Of a DNA stretch of 64,000 nt, positions 50,734-59,703 are shown piece after piece. The notes below the pieces were generated by a model, which was not told where the DNA came from, ran no database searches, and saw nothing but the letters and a program-made list of their open reading frames with translations. Where the stretch lies: NCBI GenBank assembly GCA_021325635.1, contig JAJPGV010000015.1, forward strand, positions 1 to 64,000. Direction: 5' to 3'. Position 1 is the first letter of the stretch. Each line of letters opens with the position of its first letter. Source of the DNA: Chloroflexota bacterium. Lineage in GTDB: Bacteria > Chloroflexota > JAJPGV01. The position numbers and the translations under genes were made by a program.

Positions 50734-50805
50734 GCCGGAGTAGCTCAGTGGCAGAGCAGCGGACTCATAAGCCGTTGGTCGTCAGTTCAAATCTGACCTC
50801 CGGCA
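50734..50805 (+). tRNA. tRNA with anticodon CAT (elongator Met or Ile2)
   Basis: The 72-nt cloverleaf has acceptor GCCGGAG/CTCCGGC, D-arm GCTC/GAGC, anticodon loop CTCATAA (CAT at 50766-50768), and T-arm GTCAG/CTGAC. The anticodon stem GCGGA/GCCGT closes with an A-G mismatch and a G-T pair. The paired first base and the stem without three G-C pairs argue against initiator tRNA. Elongator Met and lysidine-modified Ile2 cannot be separated by eye. An integrase relic begins 130 bp downstream. Confidence 0.9.
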
Positions 50806-50934
50806 CTCAAAGTTGAGCACGAATTGAGCGTGAGTCTCACGGCTCGGATGCCCAGAGATGTCCCTCCCACGTTTCGTGGCTGCGCCGAAAAATGTGCCCC
50901 AAGCCGGCAGCAGGCCATCCCGAATAGCCGCGGC

Positions 50935-51551: not shown

Positions 51552-51890
51552 ATGCGCAACGAGGCTGCCGAGCAGAAGGTGCTCACGTGGTTTCAGCGGG
51601 GCCTGAACCACGGCGATTGGGACGTAGCTCGCGAGGTCTTGGCCGATGGCTTCGTCTACCACGGCAGTGACGGCGACCTCGATCTCGATGCCTTCAAGGC
51701 GCGGATCGAGGACTATCGCCGCCGTTATCCGGAGCTGCTGTTCACGGTCAACGGCGTGGTATCGCATGCCGACCGGGCGGGCGTGGAATGGACGGCGGTG
51801 ACCAAGAACGCCAGCTCCAAGGGCGTAGGCGTGGCCCACTTCAGCGCCGGCAAATGCCAGGAGTTCTGGGGAGTCATGCCCAATCTCTAG
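51552..51890 (+). CDS. SnoaL-like/NTF2-fold protein
   Basis: 112 aa. The cone-like alpha+beta barrel family is recognised from VLTWFQRGLNHGDWDVAREV, then DGFVYHGSDGDLDLDAFKAR, and the terminal CQEFWGVMPN. Members include polyketide cyclases, ketosteroid isomerase-like enzymes and many carriers or dehydratases. GAGGGTGAG lies 8 nt before ATG 51552. It is the first gene of the cluster, and its end lies next to the apparent N-terminal coding sequence of the P450. Confidence 0.8.
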   Translation: MRNEAAEQKVLTWFQRGLNHGDWDVAREVLADGFVYHGSDGDLDLDAFKARIEDYRRRYPELLFTVNGVVSHADRAGVEWTAVTKNASSKGVGVAHFSAGKCQEFWGVMPNL

Positions 51891-51975
51891 CCGGCCTCCA
51901 GGGCCGAGGGCGCACCCGCTGTGGGGCCATCTGCGCGAGTTTCGACGCGACAAGGTTGGCCTGTTCCTGCGCTCG

Positions 51976-53220
51976 ATGCAGGACTTCGGCGATGTGGTGA
52001 GCTTGCGGCTTGGCAGCCGGCCGGTTGTCCTGGTAACCAGACCGGCCGAGGTAGTACGGATCCTCGAGCACAACCCCGGCAACTACCGGCCGAGCGCCAG
52101 CTATCGCGAGATAGAAAAGCTGATCGGACAGGGTTTGGTGACGACCGACGGTGAGCTCTGGAAGCGGCACCGCGCGGCGTTGCAGCCGGCCTTTCGCAAA
52201 AGCAGCACGGCTGAACTGGTACCGCTGTGCGCCGAGCGTGTGGCTGCCTTCCTGCGCAGCCGCCCTGCCTGGAGCCAGCCCGATGCAGCCGTCGATCTGC
52301 ATCACGAGATGCGCTGTTTGATGATGTCGCTAACGAGCGCAGCGCTGTTCGGGCTGGACTCGGCGGACGACGCCGAGGAGTTCACGCAGGCGTTCGACGC
52401 CGCCCATGCCTATATCATGCGGCGGATAGAGGCGCTGGTGCGGCTGGACGGGCCAACCGCCGCAAGGCGACGGTTCCTGCGCGCCAAGGCCGCGCTGCAC
52501 CGCTGCGTGGAGAGCCGGATTCGCCGTCAGGCAGCGACCTGCGCCGGCGCTTACCTGCTGGCCCAGCTGATGAAGGGCGGGCCAGAGCAGGACGCTTCGT
52601 TCAGCCAGGAAGAGCTGCGGGACGAGCTGCTGACCATCTTCCTCGCCAGCTACGACACCACGGCCACGGCGCTCACCTGGCTGTGGTTGGTCCTGTCGCT
52701 CCACGGGGAGGTCCGCCGCCGCGTGGCCGAGGAAGTCGCGACTCGGCTGCCGGCCGGCGTGGCCTGCGCGGACGATCTGGCTTCGCTGCACTACACAAGA
52801 ATGGTCGTGCTCGAAACGCTGCGGCTGTTCCCACCCGTTTGGGCTTTCTCGCGGACCGCCGCGGCAGACGACGTGCTGGGCGGCTATCGCATTCCGGCCG
52901 GCACGAAGGTGGCCATCTCGCCCTACTGCACGCACCGCCATCCCGCCGTGTGGGAGGATCCGGATGCGTTTCGGCCGGAGCGCTTCGGTGACGGTCAGCC
53001 TGGCTGGCCCCCAGGAGGGTACTTGCCGTTTGGTCTGGGGCCACGTCATTGCCTGGGACGCAACCTGGCGCTGCAGCTCATGGTGTTGGTCCTAGTGATG
53101 GTTGTCCGGGCTTACAGCGTGGAGGTACTGGGGCCGTCCAACCCCGCCTTCGAAGCCGGCATCTTTCTAAAGCCGCGCCACGGCCTGCCGGCACGCATCG
53201 CCCCGCTGCCGGGCAGCTGA
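51976..53220 (+). CDS. Cytochrome P450
   Basis: 414 aa from the first canonical ATG. The haem-ligand loop is FGLGPRHCLG (Cys359), the ExxR motif is ETLRLFPP, and the oxygen-activation helix is ASYDTTAT (Ala224 onward). There is no membrane anchor, and the enzyme probably uses external redox partners. The frame stays open upstream to 51829 without ATG, GTG or TTG. It encodes PPGPRAHPLWGHLREFRRDK from 51895, which looks like a genuine P450 N-terminus. Initiation may therefore use CTG (51919) or ATC (51883), or a base may be wrong. It is separated by 3 bp from the Rieske gene. Likely role: hydroxylation of the lipid product (inference). Confidence 0.9.
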   Translation: MQDFGDVVSLRLGSRPVVLVTRPAEVVRILEHNPGNYRPSASYREIEKLIGQGLVTTDGELWKRHRAALQPAFRKSSTAELVPLCAERVAAFLRSRPAWSQPDAAVDLHHEMRCLMMSLTSAALFGLDSADDAEEFTQAFDAAHAYIMRRIEALVRLDGPTAARRRFLRAKAALHRCVESRIRRQAATCAGAYLLAQLMKGGPEQDASFSQEELRDELLTIFLASYDTTATALTWLWLVLSLHGEVRRRVAEEVATRLPAGVACADDLASLHYTRMVVLETLRLFPPVWAFSRTAAADDVLGGYRIPAGTKVAISPYCTHRHPAVWEDPDAFRPERFGDGQPGWPPGGYLPFGLGPRHCLGRNLALQLMVLVLVMVVRAYSVEVLGPSNPAFEAGIFLKPRHGLPARIAPLPGS

Positions 53221-53223
53221 GCT

Positions 53224-54243
53224 ATGGATGCAGCGCTCAACTTCTTGCGCCGCTGCTGGCTCCCCGCCGTGTGGTCGAAAGATCTCGCGGACAAGCCGGT
53301 CGGGTTCGAGGCACTCGGCACTCACCTGGTCGCGCTGCGCGGCGCCGGAGGCACGCCGGTGGTGATGGAAGACCGCTGCGCGCATCGCGGGGTCGCCCTG
53401 TCCGACGGCTACGTGGTCGACGGCTCGATCATGTGCCGCTACCATGGCTGGCGATATGACGCCGACGGCCGGTGCCTCAAAGTTCCTAGCCTGTTGCCGG
53501 AGGACAGGCTCCCAGACGCGTGCGTGCCTGTTTTTCGCAGCCGCGAGCAGGAGGACACCGTCTGGTTCACGCTGTCGGAGACGCCCTACACGGACGAGCC
53601 GCCCCACTGGCGACACCTCTCGGCTATGGCCTCACTCAACGTAGTCGAGATCGAGGGCTACTACACCCATCTCATGGAGAACCTGGTGGACAATCCCCAC
53701 GCCGGCTACATCCATGCCGGGCTCATTCGAGGTGAGCCGACCCAGCGCGTCACAGCCGAGATCCAGCAAACCGCGGAGCACATCGTTATCCGCACCACCG
53801 GCGAAAAGACGGGCAGCAGCCTGCTGTTCAAGCTGCTGGGCAAGAAGGGCGAGGCCGTCGGCCACACGGAGGAGTACCTGGCGCCAAACCAGATGGTCAG
53901 CACGTACAGCCAGCTCGGCAGACTCGCGGGCGTGCAGTCGTTCGTCGTCCCGATCGATGAGCACCGCACTCGCTGGTTCTTCCGCCCCTTCTTGAGCTTC
54001 GGTCCCTTGACGTCCCTCGTCTTTCCCCTGTACAACCGCATCGTCCTCACGATCCTGATGCAGGACGCGGAGGTCGTCCGCCAGGTCCATGATCAAGCCT
54101 GCCGCTGGCCGGGCCGGCGCATCCTGTCGACCAAATCGGACGTGCCTTCGCTGCTAGTGGCCAGCGCGGCCCGAGCTTTCGCCCAGCATGGGCCCCAGAG
54201 CGGCGTCGCCGAGCGGACGCGCACTGTCGAATACATGCTATGA
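53224..54243 (+). CDS. Rieske non-haem iron oxygenase
   Basis: 339 aa. The N-terminal Rieske [2Fe-2S] domain has C52-x-H54 (RCAHRGVAL) and C71-x2-H74 (MCRYHGW). The catalytic domain has a mononuclear iron site in NLVDNPHAGYIHAGL. It resembles vanillate-O-demethylase/pheophorbide-a-oxygenase type monooxygenases rather than ring dioxygenases. No reductase is encoded nearby. It lies in the operon between the P450 and the fusion synthase, whose ATG overlaps its stop (ATGA). It could desaturate, hydroxylate or N-oxidise the product (inference). Confidence 0.92.
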   Translation: MDAALNFLRRCWLPAVWSKDLADKPVGFEALGTHLVALRGAGGTPVVMEDRCAHRGVALSDGYVVDGSIMCRYHGWRYDADGRCLKVPSLLPEDRLPDACVPVFRSREQEDTVWFTLSETPYTDEPPHWRHLSAMASLNVVEIEGYYTHLMENLVDNPHAGYIHAGLIRGEPTQRVTAEIQQTAEHIVIRTTGEKTGSSLLFKLLGKKGEAVGHTEEYLAPNQMVSTYSQLGRLAGVQSFVVPIDEHRTRWFFRPFLSFGPLTSLVFPLYNRIVLTILMQDAEVVRQVHDQACRWPGRRILSTKSDVPSLLVASAARAFAQHGPQSGVAERTRTVEYML

Positions 54244-57200
54244 GCCGTTCCAGCCCCGACCCCAACCTGCTCGCATACCTCGCGTATTGGGCGGAGCGGC
54301 AGCCCAACAAGGTGCTCTTCACCTTTCTGTGTGATGGCGAGGATGACTACGAAGATGTCACCTACGGGGAGCTGAACCATCAGGTCGGCAGCGTCGCTGC
54401 ATGGCTGTTCGAGCGCGGCTTGACGGCGGGAGATCGGGCCATCCTGGTCTACCCTCCGGGCTTAGCTTTTCCGGTCGTGCTCCTCGGGTGTTTGTTGGCT
54501 GGCATCGTCCCTGTGCCGGTCTACCCGCCGCGGCTCCACAAGGATGGTCTGGCAAGCCTGCGGGGCATCGTTCGCGACACGCGGGCGAGGGCCATCCTGG
54601 CGTCAACCCCCCTGACGGCGAAGCTGGCCCCGCTGCTTGCGGACGAACCCGGCTTCGGGTCGGAATTTGAGCTGGTCGACCTCGAGCGGGACGCCCCAGC
54701 CACGACCTCGCCCCCGCCGCCGGCGCGTACAGACGGCATCGCCTACCTGCAATACACTTCCGGCGCCACGGGCGTCCCCAAAGGTGTCATCATCGGCCAT
54801 GCCGGGTTGATGGCCAACCTGGCGCACATTGCCGAGAGCTTCGGCTTGAACGAGGACAGTGTTGGGGTGTTCTGGCTGCCGCCCTACCACGACATGGGAT
54901 TGGTAGGCTCTATCTTCTCCACCATCCATTGCGGCGGAAGCTCCGTCCTCATGCCGCCGATCACGTTCATTCAGAAGCCGGTGCGCTGGTTGAGCGCGAT
55001 CTCCAAGCATCGAGGCACCGTCGCGGGCGCGCCCAACTTCGCCTATGACTTATGCACTGACAAGATTTCAGCCGGGCAGCGACAGGGGCTCGATCTGAGC
55101 AGCTGGAGCGTGGCTTTCAACGGAGCGGAGGCAATCCGCCAGCGCACATTGCAAGCCTTTGCCGCTGGTTTCGCGCCATATGGCTTCCGGCCGCAACGCT
55201 TCTTCCCCTGCTATGGCTTGGCGGAAGCCACCTTGCTGGTTACCGGCAGCTTCGGGATGACCTGTTCGGCGCAGCACCACCCTGGAGCTGAGCCGGCCGT
55301 CGGCAGCGGCGCTGTGGAGCCCGCGAGGGCCGATGTCCGCGTCGTGTCAGTCGACTCCGGCCTACCATTGAGCGATGGAGAAGCGGGGGAGATCTGCGTC
55401 TCCGGTCCGAGCCTGGCGCTCGGCTACTGGGACAAGCCGGCAGAGACGCAAGCTACGTTTCAAGGCCGCGTTTTAGCCGGACGGCCGTTCCTGCGCACTG
55501 GAGACATGGGCTTTCTGAGCGAAAACCACCTCTACGTCACAGGCCGGCTGAAGGAGATGATCATCATTCGTGGCCGGAACTACTACCCCGCCGACATCGA
55601 GTCAGCGATCGAGGCCAGCCATCCCGCGCTCCACGCCAACGGCTGCGCGGTGTTTGCGATGGACGAGGGCACCCAGGAGCGCCTAGTCGTGGTCCAGGAG
55701 GTAAGACGCGATCACCTGCGGCGTCTGAACGGTGACGAGGCCATCGACGCCATTCGGCGCGTCATCGCCACGAGCTTCGATCTGCGCCCGGACGCGGTGA
55801 TCCTGATCCGGCCGGCCACGCTGCCGAAGACGGCCAACGGGAAAATCCAGCGTTACGCCTGCCGGCAGGCGTTGCAGGATGGCCTGCTGGAGATCGTCGC
55901 CCAGTGGCAGTCATCTGACAGCCCGCAGTCGGAAGGATCGTCGGACTGGCTGCCACCCCGGACCGATGGGCAAGCGTCGGGCTCCGGGCCTGCCATGCGC
56001 CACTGGGTAGTGCGCCGCATCGCCCGCGAGCTGGGCGTCACCGCCGAGAGCCTGGACCCGGATCGGGCCATCGCGGACTACGGGCTCGATTCGCTCCAGC
56101 AGGCCACGCTGGTCGGTGAGCTGTCCGAGATGGCTGGCTTCTCGCTGCCGATCGAGCTCTTCGCTCGTTATCCCACCGCCGAGGCACTGGCGGGCTACGT
56201 GGCCGTGGCCCTGGACGTTCAGGCGCGGCTTGCGGAGCTCGCTCCCGAGCAGCGGCGTCCACTGCTGACGCAGCTGGCGAACGCTCGAACCGGTCAGGCG
56301 ATCGATCCCGAGGCCGACATTCCACAAGCCTTTTACCGCGTCGACCACTTTCCCGAGGTGCAGGAGCTGCGGCAGCGTGAGGCGAGCCTAGCGGCCGCCA
56401 GGCTGCCCAATCCGTTTTTCATCGTGAGCGACGGCATCAGTAACGACCACCTCGTGCTGGAGGGTCAGGAGTTCCTGAACTACTCCAGCAACAACTACCT
56501 CGGCCTCAACGGACACCCCGAGGTGTCACGCGCGGCGCAGACGGCGATCGAACGCTACGGCACGGGCGCTTCGGCCAGCCGCATCGTCGCCGGGGAGAAG
56601 CCGATCCACCGTGAGCTGGAGCGTGCGCTGGCGGATTTCGTGGGCACAGAAGACTGTCTCACCTTCGTCGGCGGGAACACCGCCAACGTGAGCACCATTG
56701 GGCATCTTCTGGGCGAACGCGACCTGGTGCTGTACGACGAGCGCAGCCACGACAGCGTGCTAAAGGGTATCAAGCTGGCCGGCACCGACTCGTATGCGTT
56801 TCGACACAACAGCTGGCAGGAGCTGGCCAAGGTGCTCGAAGCCAAGCGACGCCGTTATGAGAAGGTACTGGTGTTCGTGGAGGGCATCTACAGCATGGAC
56901 GGCGACATTCCCGACCTGCCGCGGTTTGTGGAGGTCAAGCGGCGCCACGGGGCGTTGCTGATGGTTGACGAATGCCTATCGATTGGTGTGCTGGGCGCCA
57001 CCGGTCGCGGCATCGGGGAGCACTTCGGCCTGGACCCGGCCGACGTCGATATCTGGATGGGCGGCATCAGCAAGGCCCTGGCGAGCTGCGGCGGGTACAT
57101 CGCCGGTAGCGCCTGTCTGATCGACTACCTTCGCTATACCACTCCCGGCTTTGTCTTCACGACCGCCATGTCCCCGGCCAATGCAGCGGCCGCCTACGCG

Positions 57201-57569
57201 GCGCTGCGGGTGCTGCGCAGCGAGCCGTGGCGCGTCGCCAGACTGCACGAACGTTCGGAGCAGTTCCGCTGGCGAGCCCGAGAATCTGGCTTCGATACCG
57301 GCACCAGTGAGGGTACGCCCGTGGTGCCAGTTTTTGCCCGAAGCACTGAGGAGTGCATGATCCTGTACAAGCATCTGCACGACCGTCGCGTGAACGTCCA
57401 GCCGATTTTCTATCCGGCGGTGCCCGCCAATGCGCCGCGGCTGCGCTTTTTCGTCAGCTGTACCCACACCGAGGCAGACGTGGAGTACACGCTCGCCGCA
57501 CTCGCCGAGGCCTGGCGGATGCTGGAGCGGGCGGCCGTCCAAACGGCGCCGCCGGACGCGGCACCATAG
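54240..57569 (+). CDS. Fatty acyl-AMP ligase / acyl carrier / alpha-oxoamine synthase fusion
   Basis: 1109 aa in three parts. Residues 1 to about 575 form a fatty acyl-AMP ligase: P-loop LQYTSGATGVPKGVIIGH, then LPPYHDMGLVGSI and the hinge-side LKEMIIIRGRNYYPADIE. Residues about 580-660 form a phosphopantetheine carrier with Ser618 in ADYGLDSLQQATL. Residues about 700-1100 form a PLP enzyme of the BioF/KBL/serine-palmitoyltransferase family (NYLGLNGHPEVSRAA, FVGGNTANVSTIGHLL). Its PLP Lys945 is in GGISKALASCGGYIAG. The Asp loop reads DECLSIGVLG, with Leu where most relatives have His. Predicted chemistry: fatty acid to acyl-AMP to acyl-ACP, then condensation with an amino acid giving an alpha-aminoketone. 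Start coupled to the Rieske gene by ATGA. Confidence 0.93.
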   Translation: MSRSSPDPNLLAYLAYWAERQPNKVLFTFLCDGEDDYEDVTYGELNHQVGSVAAWLFERGLTAGDRAILVYPPGLAFPVVLLGCLLAGIVPVPVYPPRLHKDGLASLRGIVRDTRARAILASTPLTAKLAPLLADEPGFGSEFELVDLERDAPATTSPPPPARTDGIAYLQYTSGATGVPKGVIIGHAGLMANLAHIAESFGLNEDSVGVFWLPPYHDMGLVGSIFSTIHCGGSSVLMPPITFIQKPVRWLSAISKHRGTVAGAPNFAYDLCTDKISAGQRQGLDLSSWSVAFNGAEAIRQRTLQAFAAGFAPYGFRPQRFFPCYGLAEATLLVTGSFGMTCSAQHHPGAEPAVGSGAVEPARADVRVVSVDSGLPLSDGEAGEICVSGPSLALGYWDKPAETQATFQGRVLAGRPFLRTGDMGFLSENHLYVTGRLKEMIIIRGRNYYPADIESAIEASHPALHANGCAVFAMDEGTQERLVVVQEVRRDHLRRLNGDEAIDAIRRVIATSFDLRPDAVILIRPATLPKTANGKIQRYACRQALQDGLLEIVAQWQSSDSPQSEGSSDWLPPRTDGQASGSGPAMRHWVVRRIARELGVTAESLDPDRAIADYGLDSLQQATLVGELSEMAGFSLPIELFARYPTAEALAGYVAVALDVQARLAELAPEQRRPLLTQLANARTGQAIDPEADIPQAFYRVDHFPEVQELRQREASLAAARLPNPFFIVSDGISNDHLVLEGQEFLNYSSNNYLGLNGHPEVSRAAQTAIERYGTGASASRIVAGEKPIHRELERALADFVGTEDCLTFVGGNTANVSTIGHLLGERDLVLYDERSHDSVLKGIKLAGTDSYAFRHNSWQELAKVLEAKRRRYEKVLVFVEGIYSMDGDIPDLPRFVEVKRRHGALLMVDECLSIGVLGATGRGIGEHFGLDPADVDIWMGGISKALASCGGYIAGSACLIDYLRYTTPGFVFTTAMSPANAAAAYAALRVLRSEPWRVARLHERSEQFRWRARESGFDTGTSEGTPVVPVFARSTEECMILYKHLHDRRVNVQPIFYPAVPANAPRLRFFVSCTHTEADVEYTLAALAEAWRMLERAAVQTAPPDAAP

Positions 57570-57587
57570 GAGGTGGTGTAGCAGGAC

Positions 57588-58562
57588 TCACCAGCGCAAC
57601 AGCACCCCGGCATGTACTAGCCCGCCGCCGAAACCGTACAGCAGGATCACCTGGCCCGGTCGAATACGGCCATCGCGAAGGGCTTCCGCCAGAGCCAGAG
57701 GAATGCTGGCCGAGGACGTGTTGCCATGTAGCTCAACGCTCGACAGCAGGCGGTCGGCACGAATGCCCAAACGCTCGCAAATCGCGTGCAGGATGCGTAG
57801 ATTCGCGCTGTGCGGCACGAACCAGTCGACGTCTTCGGCGTTCAGGCAGGCTTTCTTCAGGAGCTGCTCGATGCCCTGCGGCACGGCCGTGACGGCCCAC
57901 TTATAGACTTCTCGCCCGTTCTGAATAATCAACCCATCGCCCGCCAGGGGAAGCCCAGCCATCCGCCGTGACAAACCCGAGCGATAGAGGTGCCGGCCGC
58001 CCTCTCCGCTCGAACCGAGGTGAGCCGCCAGAAACATGGGCCGCCGATCGTCGACCTCGACAATGACCACGCCGGCGCCGTCTCCCCACAGGATGCAGTT
58101 GGAGCGTTCGCCGTAGTCCGTGACCTTGGTGAGCGTCTCGGCGCCGACGACCAGCACCTTGCGGTGGAGTCCCGCGCTGATCAGTCCATTGGCCAGGTGC
58201 AGGGCGTAGGTAAAGCCGGCGCAGACGGCGTTCACGTCTATGGCGCCGCAGTCCGTCAACCCGAGCCGGTCCTGGAGCACGCAGGCCACGCTGGGAAAGC
58301 CGTAGTCTGGCGTGCTTGTGGCGACGATGATGAGATCAACGCCAGCCAGCGACCCTTCTCCTTGGGCCTCGAGGTCTCGGATGGCCGCCAGGGCGAGATC
58401 GCTGGTGAATTCGTCGGGACCGCTGACTCGGCGTTCGCGAATCCCGGTGCGGCTGACGATCCACTCATCGCTCGTTTCCACCATGGTCGATAGCTGATAG
58501 TTGGTGAGGACGCGTTCGGGAACAGCAACGCCAATGCCTGAGATGCGGGCGCGTGATTGCAT
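57588..58562 (-). CDS. 3-oxoacyl-ACP synthase III (FabH-like)
   Basis: The 324-aa thiolase-fold condensing enzyme has the complete KAS III triad: Cys114 in VNAVCAGFTYAL, His251 in FVPHSANLRI and Asn281 in HGNTSSASIP. ATG 58562 gives the normal FabH length; the frame extends upstream to 58649. It is convergent with the fusion synthase and divergent from the transferase gene. It may supply or extend the acyl chain, or act in acyl transfer, for the cluster. It could equally be a housekeeping FabH, but the absence of other fab genes favours a cluster role (inference). Confidence 0.9.
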   Translation of the reverse strand: MQSRARISGIGVAVPERVLTNYQLSTMVETSDEWIVSRTGIRERRVSGPDEFTSDLALAAIRDLEAQGEGSLAGVDLIIVATSTPDYGFPSVACVLQDRLGLTDCGAIDVNAVCAGFTYALHLANGLISAGLHRKVLVVGAETLTKVTDYGERSNCILWGDGAGVVIVEVDDRRPMFLAAHLGSSGEGGRHLYRSGLSRRMAGLPLAGDGLIIQNGREVYKWAVTAVPQGIEQLLKKACLNAEDVDWFVPHSANLRILHAICERLGIRADRLLSSVELHGNTSSASIPLALAEALRDGRIRPGQVILLYGFGGGLVHAGVLLRW

Positions 58563-58899
58563 GGGTAATTCATACCAGAAGCAAGCGACAGCTGCGCGAA
58601 AACGTTGTGCTGGCGCGCCCTCCGGCCTGTTCCGAGTTACCGGCTCCAAGGCAGTCCATTACCTTTCAGCCTCGAGCGTGCCGGCAGCTTGCAGCATCCG
58701 CTGTTTGGGGGCACGCACTCCTCGCACTCATACTTGTTTCATGTTGCGCGGCTGTTTCGGCAGCTCGCTTCACGATGAGCCGGTTCAGCAGCTCGTTCAG
58801 CGTTACCCTACCAGGAGTAGGGCACGGCACTGTCGGCCGCGCCGTGACAATCACAACAGTGACAAGAGTTGCGCCTTGGAATCCACGGATTGCACTGGC
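58563..58899. promoter_or_regulatory. Divergent intergenic region between the KAS III and transferase genes
   Basis: 337 bp with no supported gene. It must hold the promoters for both flanking genes. Two GTGACAA copies lie 15 bp apart (58844 and 58859), with a TGTC/GACA inverted pair next to them. No consensus -35/-10 pair was recognised. Confidence 0.3.
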
Positions 58900-59703
58900 G
58901 TGACTTCCAAGCTGCGCCTCACCGAGCGAGAGACCCACGTCTGGTCGGTTTTAGTGAGTGAAGAATTGTTGGCGCAGCTGCCCGCCGTGCTGGATGAAAA
59001 CGACGAGGAACGGGCTCGGCGATTGGTTTTTCCCGAGCACAGGGTGCATTTTCGCTGCGTGCGCACGGTTCTGCGGCTCCTTCTGGCGACCTATCTTGCG
59101 ACTGAGCCAGACCACGTGCGGCTGGTCTACGGCCCTCACGGCAAGCCGGGTGTGGATGGGCTCCGCTTCAACATCTCTCACTCTGGTGAGCTCGCCGTCC
59201 TTGCCTTCACGCTACTGCCCGCAGTCGGCATCGACGTGGAAGAGCTCCGTGAGATTCCATCTGCGATCACGATCGCTCGGCACTATTTCTCAGGTGCCGA
59301 GCAACGTGCTCTCGCTACGTTGCCCGAACGCGGGAGCGCTTCGTTCCTGCGCTGCTGGACGCGCAAGGAGGCTTTTGTCAAGGCATTGGGACCCGGGCTC
59401 GCAATCGATCTCACTTCCTTCGATGTGTCGCTCGATGCTGATCGAGCGCAGCTGCTTGACCTGCGCGATGCATCCTCTTCGGCTGCGGATTGGCAGCTGC
59501 ATAACCTGTCGCTGCCGCAGGGCTTTGTTGGCTCCCTCACACTATCTCGATCCGAAGCCACGCATGAGGTGATCGAGCTCACTTTTCCGCGCGTGCTCTT
59601 TCGAAGCCGGACAGGTTCTCACGCGGACGCCGTTCAGCACATCGCGTCGCGACTTGAAAACGCTCAGCAAGCATTTCGCTTCAACGACGGCGCCCATCCA
59701 TGA
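58900..59703 (+). CDS. 4'-phosphopantetheinyl transferase (Sfp/Gsp type)
   Basis: About 267 aa. It activates carrier domains by moving phosphopantetheine from CoA to the conserved serine. The magnesium-site motif GIDVEELREI and the helix CWTRKEAFVKALG are both intact. RFNISHSGELAVLA precedes them. The length fits the two-domain Sfp class that modifies secondary-metabolism carriers. The start is uncertain: GTG 58900 is used, and TTG 58876 is possible. Its presence beside a carrier-containing synthase strongly suggests it primes Ser618 there. Confidence 0.9.
   Translation: MTSKLRLTERETHVWSVLVSEELLAQLPAVLDENDEERARRLVFPEHRVHFRCVRTVLRLLLATYLATEPDHVRLVYGPHGKPGVDGLRFNISHSGELAVLAFTLLPAVGIDVEELREIPSAITIARHYFSGAEQRALATLPERGSASFLRCWTRKEAFVKALGPGLAIDLTSFDVSLDADRAQLLDLRDASSSAADWQLHNLSLPQGFVGSLTLSRSEATHEVIELTFPRVLFRSRTGSHADAVQHIASRLENAQQAFRFNDGAHP

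Follow-up and report, generated by a model that had tools for sequence, protein, structure and literature searches.

Alpha-oxoamine synthases (AOS), which depend on pyridoxal 5'-phosphate (PLP), make sphingoid bases, the precursors of haem and biotin, and several natural products. Here we analyse a gene cluster of a Chloroflexota bacterium (GenBank assembly GCA_021325635.1) in which an AOS forms the last domain of a three-domain protein, behind a fatty acyl-AMP ligase (FAAL) and an acyl carrier protein (ACP), and stands next to two oxygenase genes. The window, that is, the whole stretch analysed, comprises positions 1 to 64,000 of contig JAJPGV010000015.1 (178 kb, in an assembly of 4.64 Mb) and has a GC content of about 0.65. 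The cluster and its boundaries are as follows:

50734-50806: tRNA-Met, upstream boundary of the cluster
51552..51890, plus strand: SnoaL-like small protein, 112 aa, first gene of the operon (Pfam SnoaL_2, E 6e-10)
51976..53220, plus strand: cytochrome P450, as called (Pfam p450, E 7e-71)
53224..54243, plus strand: Rieske non-heme iron oxygenase of the VanA_C type, 339 aa (Pfam Rieske and VanA_C)
54240..57569, plus strand: FAAL-ACP-AOS fusion, 1109 aa (domain profiles, alignment and fold match)
54240..55910, plus strand: FAAL domain of the fusion, residues 1-557 (alignment with RsFAAL, 7r7e)
56004..56201, plus strand: carrier (PP-binding) domain of the fusion, residues 589-654 (Pfam; Ser618 in GLDSL)
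56277..57569, plus strand: AOS domain of the fusion, residues 680-1109 (alignment and predicted structure)
57588..58649, minus strand: FabH-type beta-ketoacyl-ACP synthase III (KAS III), likely start ATG 58562 (NCBIfam PRK09352, 377 bits, cut-off 249)
58900..59703, plus strand: Sfp/HetI-type phosphopantetheinyl transferase (PPTase), 267 aa from GTG 58900 (Pfam and NCBIfam)
from 59927: rbs-type sugar kinase/ABC operon, the other boundary of the cluster

A sequence-only reading of this DNA had placed the SnoaL-like, P450, Rieske and fusion genes in one plus-strand operon, and the spacing bears this out. The P450 and Rieske genes are 3 bp apart and the Rieske and fusion genes overlap by 4 bp, so these three are coupled, while 85 bp separate the SnoaL-like gene upstream from the P450 start as called. 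The P450 carries the heme-cysteine motif FGLGPRHCLG, and the Rieske oxygenase carries CxH...CxxH followed by D-x2-H-x4-H (both located by eye and by script); the best relatives of the latter in the PDB, at about 60 bits, include SxtDIOX, SxtT and DdmC. The KAS III gene runs convergently with the fusion on the minus strand and is thus outside the operon. The PPTase gene diverges from it; the open reading frame (ORF) listed for the PPTase begins far upstream of the real gene, for which GTG 58900 is the likely start.

The three-domain architecture proposed earlier for the 1109-aa protein is upheld by domain profiles, which match AMP-binding (residues 16-397), a DIP2-like C-terminal subdomain (438-553), PP-binding (589-654) and Aminotran_1_2 (745-1088). 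Residues 1-557 match RsFAAL with 492 bits. FAALs are distinguished by bulky residues that exclude CoA and by a specific helix (PMC8460268), and both are kept here: W212, M219 and F267 align with the pocket-closing W210, M217 and F265 of RsFAAL, and TFIQ (242-245) aligns without gaps with the helix segment AFLQ (240-243). In the FAAL-specific insertion region the alignment with RsFAAL is broken by gaps as long as 16 residues, and the boundaries are blurred. These residues support the earlier assignment of the first domain as a FAAL rather than a CoA-ligase. Two further residues singled out by the sequence-only reading as indicators of function, the phosphopantetheine-bearing Ser618 of the carrier and the PLP lysine, Lys945, are intact.

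The AOS domain was modelled by AlphaFold2 with a pLDDT (predicted local distance difference test) of 90.5. Its best fold match is the serine palmitoyltransferase (SPT) of Sphingobacterium multivorum (Foldseek E 1e-40, template modelling scores 0.85/0.93), which is also its best sequence match in the PDB. The top-scoring profile is TIGR00858 bioF, at 351.6 bits against a cut-off of 426.45, and the SPT models NF047600, NF047599 and NF047603 give 320, 287 and 211 bits against cut-offs of 640, 500 and 670, respectively. Since its scores reach none of the NCBIfam cut-offs for BioF, SPT, KBL and ALAS, the domain lies outside these named families; judged by fold and descent it belongs to the AOS family, and a decarboxylative condensation is predicted. 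The residues H837, S885, D910, S944, K945 and R1067/R1069 are kept, and among them are the PLP lysine (K945), the aspartate at the pyridine nitrogen (D910), the stacking histidine (H837) and the substrate arginine (R1067/R1069); K945, D910, H837, S885 and both arginines are invariant.

The most unusual feature of the protein, which the sequence-only reading missed, is that this AOS lacks both the histidine that binds O3' of PLP and the threonine that contacts the PLP phosphate and the catalytic lysine, a combination found, among the AOS domains examined, only in P450-linked fusions. We aligned 39 AOS domains (31 from fusions or split clusters, three P450-linked ones among them, and five references). 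The altered positions in the window are N813, C912, L913, G942, T968, T974 and Y1043. Leu913 replaces a histidine that occurs in 36/36 of the others aligned and corresponds to His207 of BioF, His213 of SmSPT and His234 of SpSPT; Gly942, three residues before the PLP lysine, replaces a threonine likewise present in 36/36; and Cys912 replaces an alanine present in 35, with serine in the remaining one. Further exchanges are an aromatic residue or histidine to Asn813 and a serine to Thr974. In SmSPT crystal structures His213 bonds PLP O3', Thr241 contacts the phosphate and Lys244, Ala212 lies at the PLP face, Phe114 contacts the phosphate through its main chain, and Ser273 comes from the partner subunit (PMC10196870). 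The histidine and threonine are kept in all ten further Chloroflexota AOS domains inspected (10/10). The pocket signature is common to two other fusions, from Roseivirga (locus L029) and Photorhabdus (locus L030), and scanning every AOS-like ORF fetched for the motif gave no other exception. When 3212 triples of equally diverged AOS domains were compared, only the triple formed by these three fusions had eight signature columns, the runner-up having three, and it was the only one that flipped near-invariant columns. Most likely the remodelling accommodates another amino-acid partner or lets the PLP intermediate take another course. A His-Ala-Ser triad has been termed strictly conserved in AOS enzymes (PMC6148460); we observe that this triad reads His-Asn-Ser in nearly all AOS domains of the fusion family and His-Asp-Ser in the window and in Photorhabdus.

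The same two relatives are also the ones that carry a P450 gene. Scanning 7 kb on each side of 29 other fusions (less at contig ends) gave a P450 beside 2/29, exactly L029 and L030; with the window excluded and the loci assumed independent, such a pairing of signature and P450 has a chance of 1 in 406. The P450s of the three loci (32-33% identity to that of the window) have PPVWxFSR and SPYC stretches in common. The Roseivirga locus adds a PhyH protein and a short-chain dehydrogenase/reductase (SDR), and the Photorhabdus locus, for which no literature was found, adds a carbamoyltransferase-like protein and an SDR. The P450 is most likely a functional partner of the remodelled AOS type, as judged from this co-occurrence.

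The three P450-linked fusions join in trees of the whole fusion (100/99) and of the AOS domain (100/98). A clean clade of the three as an independent argument for the link has nevertheless been withdrawn: when the eight signature columns are removed the group appears in 3% of bootstraps (4% when neighbouring columns are removed as well), and the FAAL-domain tree does not join the three. On the signature-free AOS alignment the closest domain found to the window's AOS is that of Scytonema (54% identity), with L029 and L030 at about 49%; outside the pocket these two are no closer to it than other AOS domains are. Since the group collapses without the signature columns, the signature would have arisen by convergence or else predate the signal that is left; both origins are possible, and under either it goes with the P450.

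The fusion itself is not unique. About 29 other full FAAL-ACP-AOS fusions from several phyla are among the matches listed, to which the counts given here also refer; they come from cyanobacteria, Desulfobulbaceae, Roseivirga, Photorhabdus, Myxococcales, Legionella, Planctomycetaceae and Gemmatimonadota. Counted at E <= 1e-160, a threshold at which some matches may be partial or split, fusion matches occur in 6/244 sampled cyanobacteria, 6/200 sampled Gemmatimonadota and 1/195 genomes of the phylum of the Myxococcales hit; Roseivirga stands alone among 396 genomes, Photorhabdus among 395 of the Enterobacterales order, and the genome of the window among 400 of its phylum. Such a patchy spread would fit horizontal transfer. 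The AOS domains of the cyanobacterial fusions L144, L145 and L146 group with the Sphingobacterium SPT (98/92), apart from all other fusions, and the fusion has therefore probably arisen at least twice. The domain order was published in 2013, when an in silico survey listed three-domain proteins with adenylating, carrier and AOS domains, without products, from Microscilla (A1ZVW4), Blastopirellula (A3ZWL3) and Synechococcus 7002 (B1XHP8) (PMC3870968). These resemble the window's protein in the order of ligase, carrier and AOS. The survey reported the PLP-sandwiching Ala211 and the O3-binding His212 as invariant in embedded AOS domains, whereas the window and its two P450-linked relatives have Cys and Leu (PMC3870968). 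What is new is accordingly the set of changes in the AOS pocket and the P450 link, the fusion architecture itself being already known.

The neighbourhoods of the related fusions point to a product class. Behind the cyanobacterial fusions come an SDR (64-77% mutual identity) and glycosyltransferases resembling monogalactosyldiacylglycerol synthase, and a weakly GNAT-like protein adjoins the fusions of Legionella and Gemmatimonadota. The Legionella loci (L033, L035, L037 and L038) also carry an SDR, PAP2, a CDP-alcohol phosphotransferase and glycosyltransferases. In Scytonema, a split FAAL, a desaturase, an ACP, an AOS, a KshA-type Rieske oxygenase and an SDR form one run (L090:7022-14887). Because these surroundings look like those of sphingoid-lipid genes, the fusion family most likely serves sphingoid-type lipids. 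The alpha-aminoketone or sphingoid-like lipid proposed by the sequence-only reading thereby stands as the most likely class of product, with the qualification that the window itself is without the partner genes of these relatives. Separately, we note that the GNAT-like protein, of about 382 aa, is conserved (L033:8811-9959, L150:6338-7492 and L151:6710-7876) and is a candidate sphingoid N-acyltransferase; that the Legionella loci are candidate ceramide or glycolipid loci, which would explain the ceramides reported from Legionella; and that in the phylum of the window a one-module polyketide synthase (PKS) is followed by an AOS 50% identical to that of the window and by GDP-mannose and glycosyltransferase genes (L115:58-8933), an SgaAB-like pair.

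Membership of the outlying genes was judged by the same comparison. The P450 recurs at two relatives, and in this part the co-occurrence expected of a true cluster was found; no counterpart of KAS III, PPTase or SnoaL accompanies any related fusion examined, and the membership of these three is thus putative. The KAS III and PPTase genes assigned to the cluster earlier are indeed present. KAS III, which may or may not be a pathway member, was left out: it lies on the opposite strand, lacks counterparts near other fusions, and has a 44% identical FabH-type paralogue elsewhere in the genome, neither of the two being in a fab operon. The Sfp-type PPTase likely activates the carrier of the fusion, as the genome has just one more PPTase, a 180-aa frame of AcpS size. 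The genome yielded no further AOS-family protein, and searches of plasmids, viruses and the genome itself gave no second fusion.

From the gene order, domain content, catalytic residues, pocket changes and P450 co-occurrence read in the DNA, we consider it probable that the cluster encodes a short lipid pathway in which a FAAL-loaded carrier feeds an AOS with a remodelled pocket, the aminoketone it releases being oxidised by the two oxygenases, P450 and Rieske. Ser618 would first be activated by the neighbouring Sfp-type PPTase. The FAAL domain would then adenylate a fatty acid to the acyl-AMP and pass it on as acyl-Ser618 of the adjacent carrier. At the PLP-dependent AOS domain, of the SPT/BioF family, an amino-acid carbanion would attack the acyl-carrier thioester, and a fatty alpha-aminoketone or a close variant would be set free straight from the carrier with no CoA involved. 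Oxidation of chain or head by the P450 and the Rieske oxygenase would take place either on the carrier or after release. The product is most likely an oxidised fatty aminoketone or amino lipid; the substrates, the sequence of steps and the site at which each oxygenase acts are predicted on the same grounds.

Characterised systems parallel each half of this pathway. CaBioWF, a natural ligase-AOS fusion, converts fatty acids with Ala, Ser or Gly into aminoketones; as in the window, a single chain activates the fatty acid and a PLP domain makes the aminoketone, but its ligase is of the BioW family, its thioester is a free CoA ester, it has no carrier domain and its role is that of BioF (PMC9544090). 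In Caulobacter, a separate acyl-ACP synthetase, ACP and SPT (AasR, AcpR and Spt) make 3-oxo-sphinganine. There too a ligase loads a dedicated carrier and an AOS condenses, although the system consists of three genes with another type of ligase and a standard SPT pocket, and Caulobacter, unlike the window, also has a dehydrogenase and an N-acyltransferase for ceramide (PMC9386255). PfSgaAB, in which a PKS and an AOS make sphinganines in Pseudomonas, shares the condensation of an assembly-line-derived acyl thioester; it differs in that the chain is built by an iterative PKS without FAAL loading and in that the two-gene cluster has neither P450 nor Rieske oxygenase (PMC12134224). The Roseivirga and Photorhabdus loci are alike in domain order, remodelled pocket and adjacent P450, and differ by their extra SDR and PhyH or carbamoyltransferase-like genes and by having no Rieske or SnoaL gene. 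No paper treating FAAL and AOS together was found in the literature searched, and a 2025 FAAL review never mentions PLP or pyridoxal. In line with the earlier impression, this literature, whose coverage mostly excludes subscription journals, gave no characterised pathway with this gene set.

Several observations weigh against the proposed pathway. The O3' histidine, kept by every characterised AOS examined, is lost, and normal condensation is on this account not assured. No ketoreductase, glycosyltransferase or N-acyltransferase was found among the window genes around the cluster, and most relatives have them; nor does the cluster hold a redox partner for the P450 or the Rieske oxygenase. The genome has 60 Rieske-domain matches in 4.64 Mb, which makes a Rieske neighbour in itself weak evidence, and it is the operon that links this one to the fusion. 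Finally, the called P450 ORF is without its N-terminus. The frame extends upstream (about 51885-51975) through a stretch typical of P450 N-termini, which includes RPPGPRAHPLWGHLREFRRDKVGLFLRSM and aligns with the Roseivirga and Photorhabdus P450s; it contains no ATG, GTG or TTG, and the gene may have a non-standard start codon or the assembly an error. The P450 N-terminal coding stretch overlaps the stop region of the SnoaL-like gene (51826-51976). The number of Rieske matches also marks the lineage as unusually rich in oxygenases.

Among other explanations, a remodelled AOS that no longer performs a decarboxylative Claisen condensation is unlikely, yet it survives best. The domain would use its PLP for some other reaction on the amino acid, for instance a transamination, an oxidation or a condensation in which no CO2 is lost, and the P450 would complete the altered fatty amine or amide head so formed. 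The coordinated loss of the O3' histidine, the alanine face, the threonine touching phosphate and lysine, and the aromatic residue of the phosphate cup, with lysine, aspartate and stacking histidine kept (roles from PMC10196870 and PMC6148460), speaks for it, as does a signature unique among the 3212 triples and tied to the P450. However, new chemistry is not provable by sequence, another residue or water could replace the O3' histidine, and the arginine, stacking histidine and lysine of the normal reaction are retained. A conventional sphingoid-base synthase, that is, a one-chain FAAL/ACP/SPT that supplies membrane sphingolipids and whose ketoreductase and downstream enzymes are encoded at other places in the genome, seems distinctly unlikely. 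It would agree with SPTs being the closest PDB relatives in sequence and fold, with an AOS tree that places the group by SPTLC2/SPT references, and with the genes around the Legionella fusions together with the ceramides of L. gormanii (PMC9146996); however, the AOS domain is below every NCBIfam SPT cut-off and has lost SPT pocket residues, its adjoining genes encode a P450 and a Rieske oxygenase instead of an SDR, glycosyltransferase or GNAT protein, and a pair of oxygenases is more in keeping with a tailored small molecule than with a membrane lipid made in bulk.

We regard it as improbable that the genes are chance neighbours, the fusion being a lipid enzyme, functional or in decay, that merely adjoins unrelated P450, Rieske and SnoaL genes in an oxygenase-rich genome. 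The many Rieske matches, the occurrence of the whole gene set at no other locus, the missing counterparts of KAS III, PPTase and SnoaL, and the P450 frame without a standard start codon would all allow it, but the tight coupling of P450, Rieske and fusion genes, the recurrence of the P450 beside only those other fusions that have the same pocket, and intact catalytic residues in all four proteins argue otherwise. That the AOS domain serves as BioF in the biotin synthesis of this genome, which its best profile and the lack of any other detected AOS-family protein might imply, is rejected as highly improbable, because the domain scores below the BioF cut-off, is without BioF His207 and Thr233, is fused to a FAAL of the long-chain type, and is followed by no bio gene, its operon partners being oxygenases.

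Beyond the short lipid pathway proposed here, a more tentative and rather doubtful generalization is that a pocket without the histidine and threonine has evolved in FAAL-ACP-AOS enzymes to work with a dedicated P450, once or more often and perhaps separately in each of three phyla, yielding new oxidised fatty amino metabolites through an altered AOS reaction. The PLP pocket of AOS enzymes has been treated as fixed; here its histidine and alanine are replaced while lysine and aspartate are kept, and the P450-linked altered pockets in three phyla offer a natural test of the roles of the former two. A CoA-free, single-chain FAAL-carrier-AOS protein would be a convenient biocatalyst. The wider fusion family provides a candidate first enzyme for the ceramides of Legionella, where L. 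gormanii makes ceramides and hexosylceramides and no clear SPT has been assigned (PMC9146996), and its remodelled members point to oxidised amino lipids as a class not yet studied.

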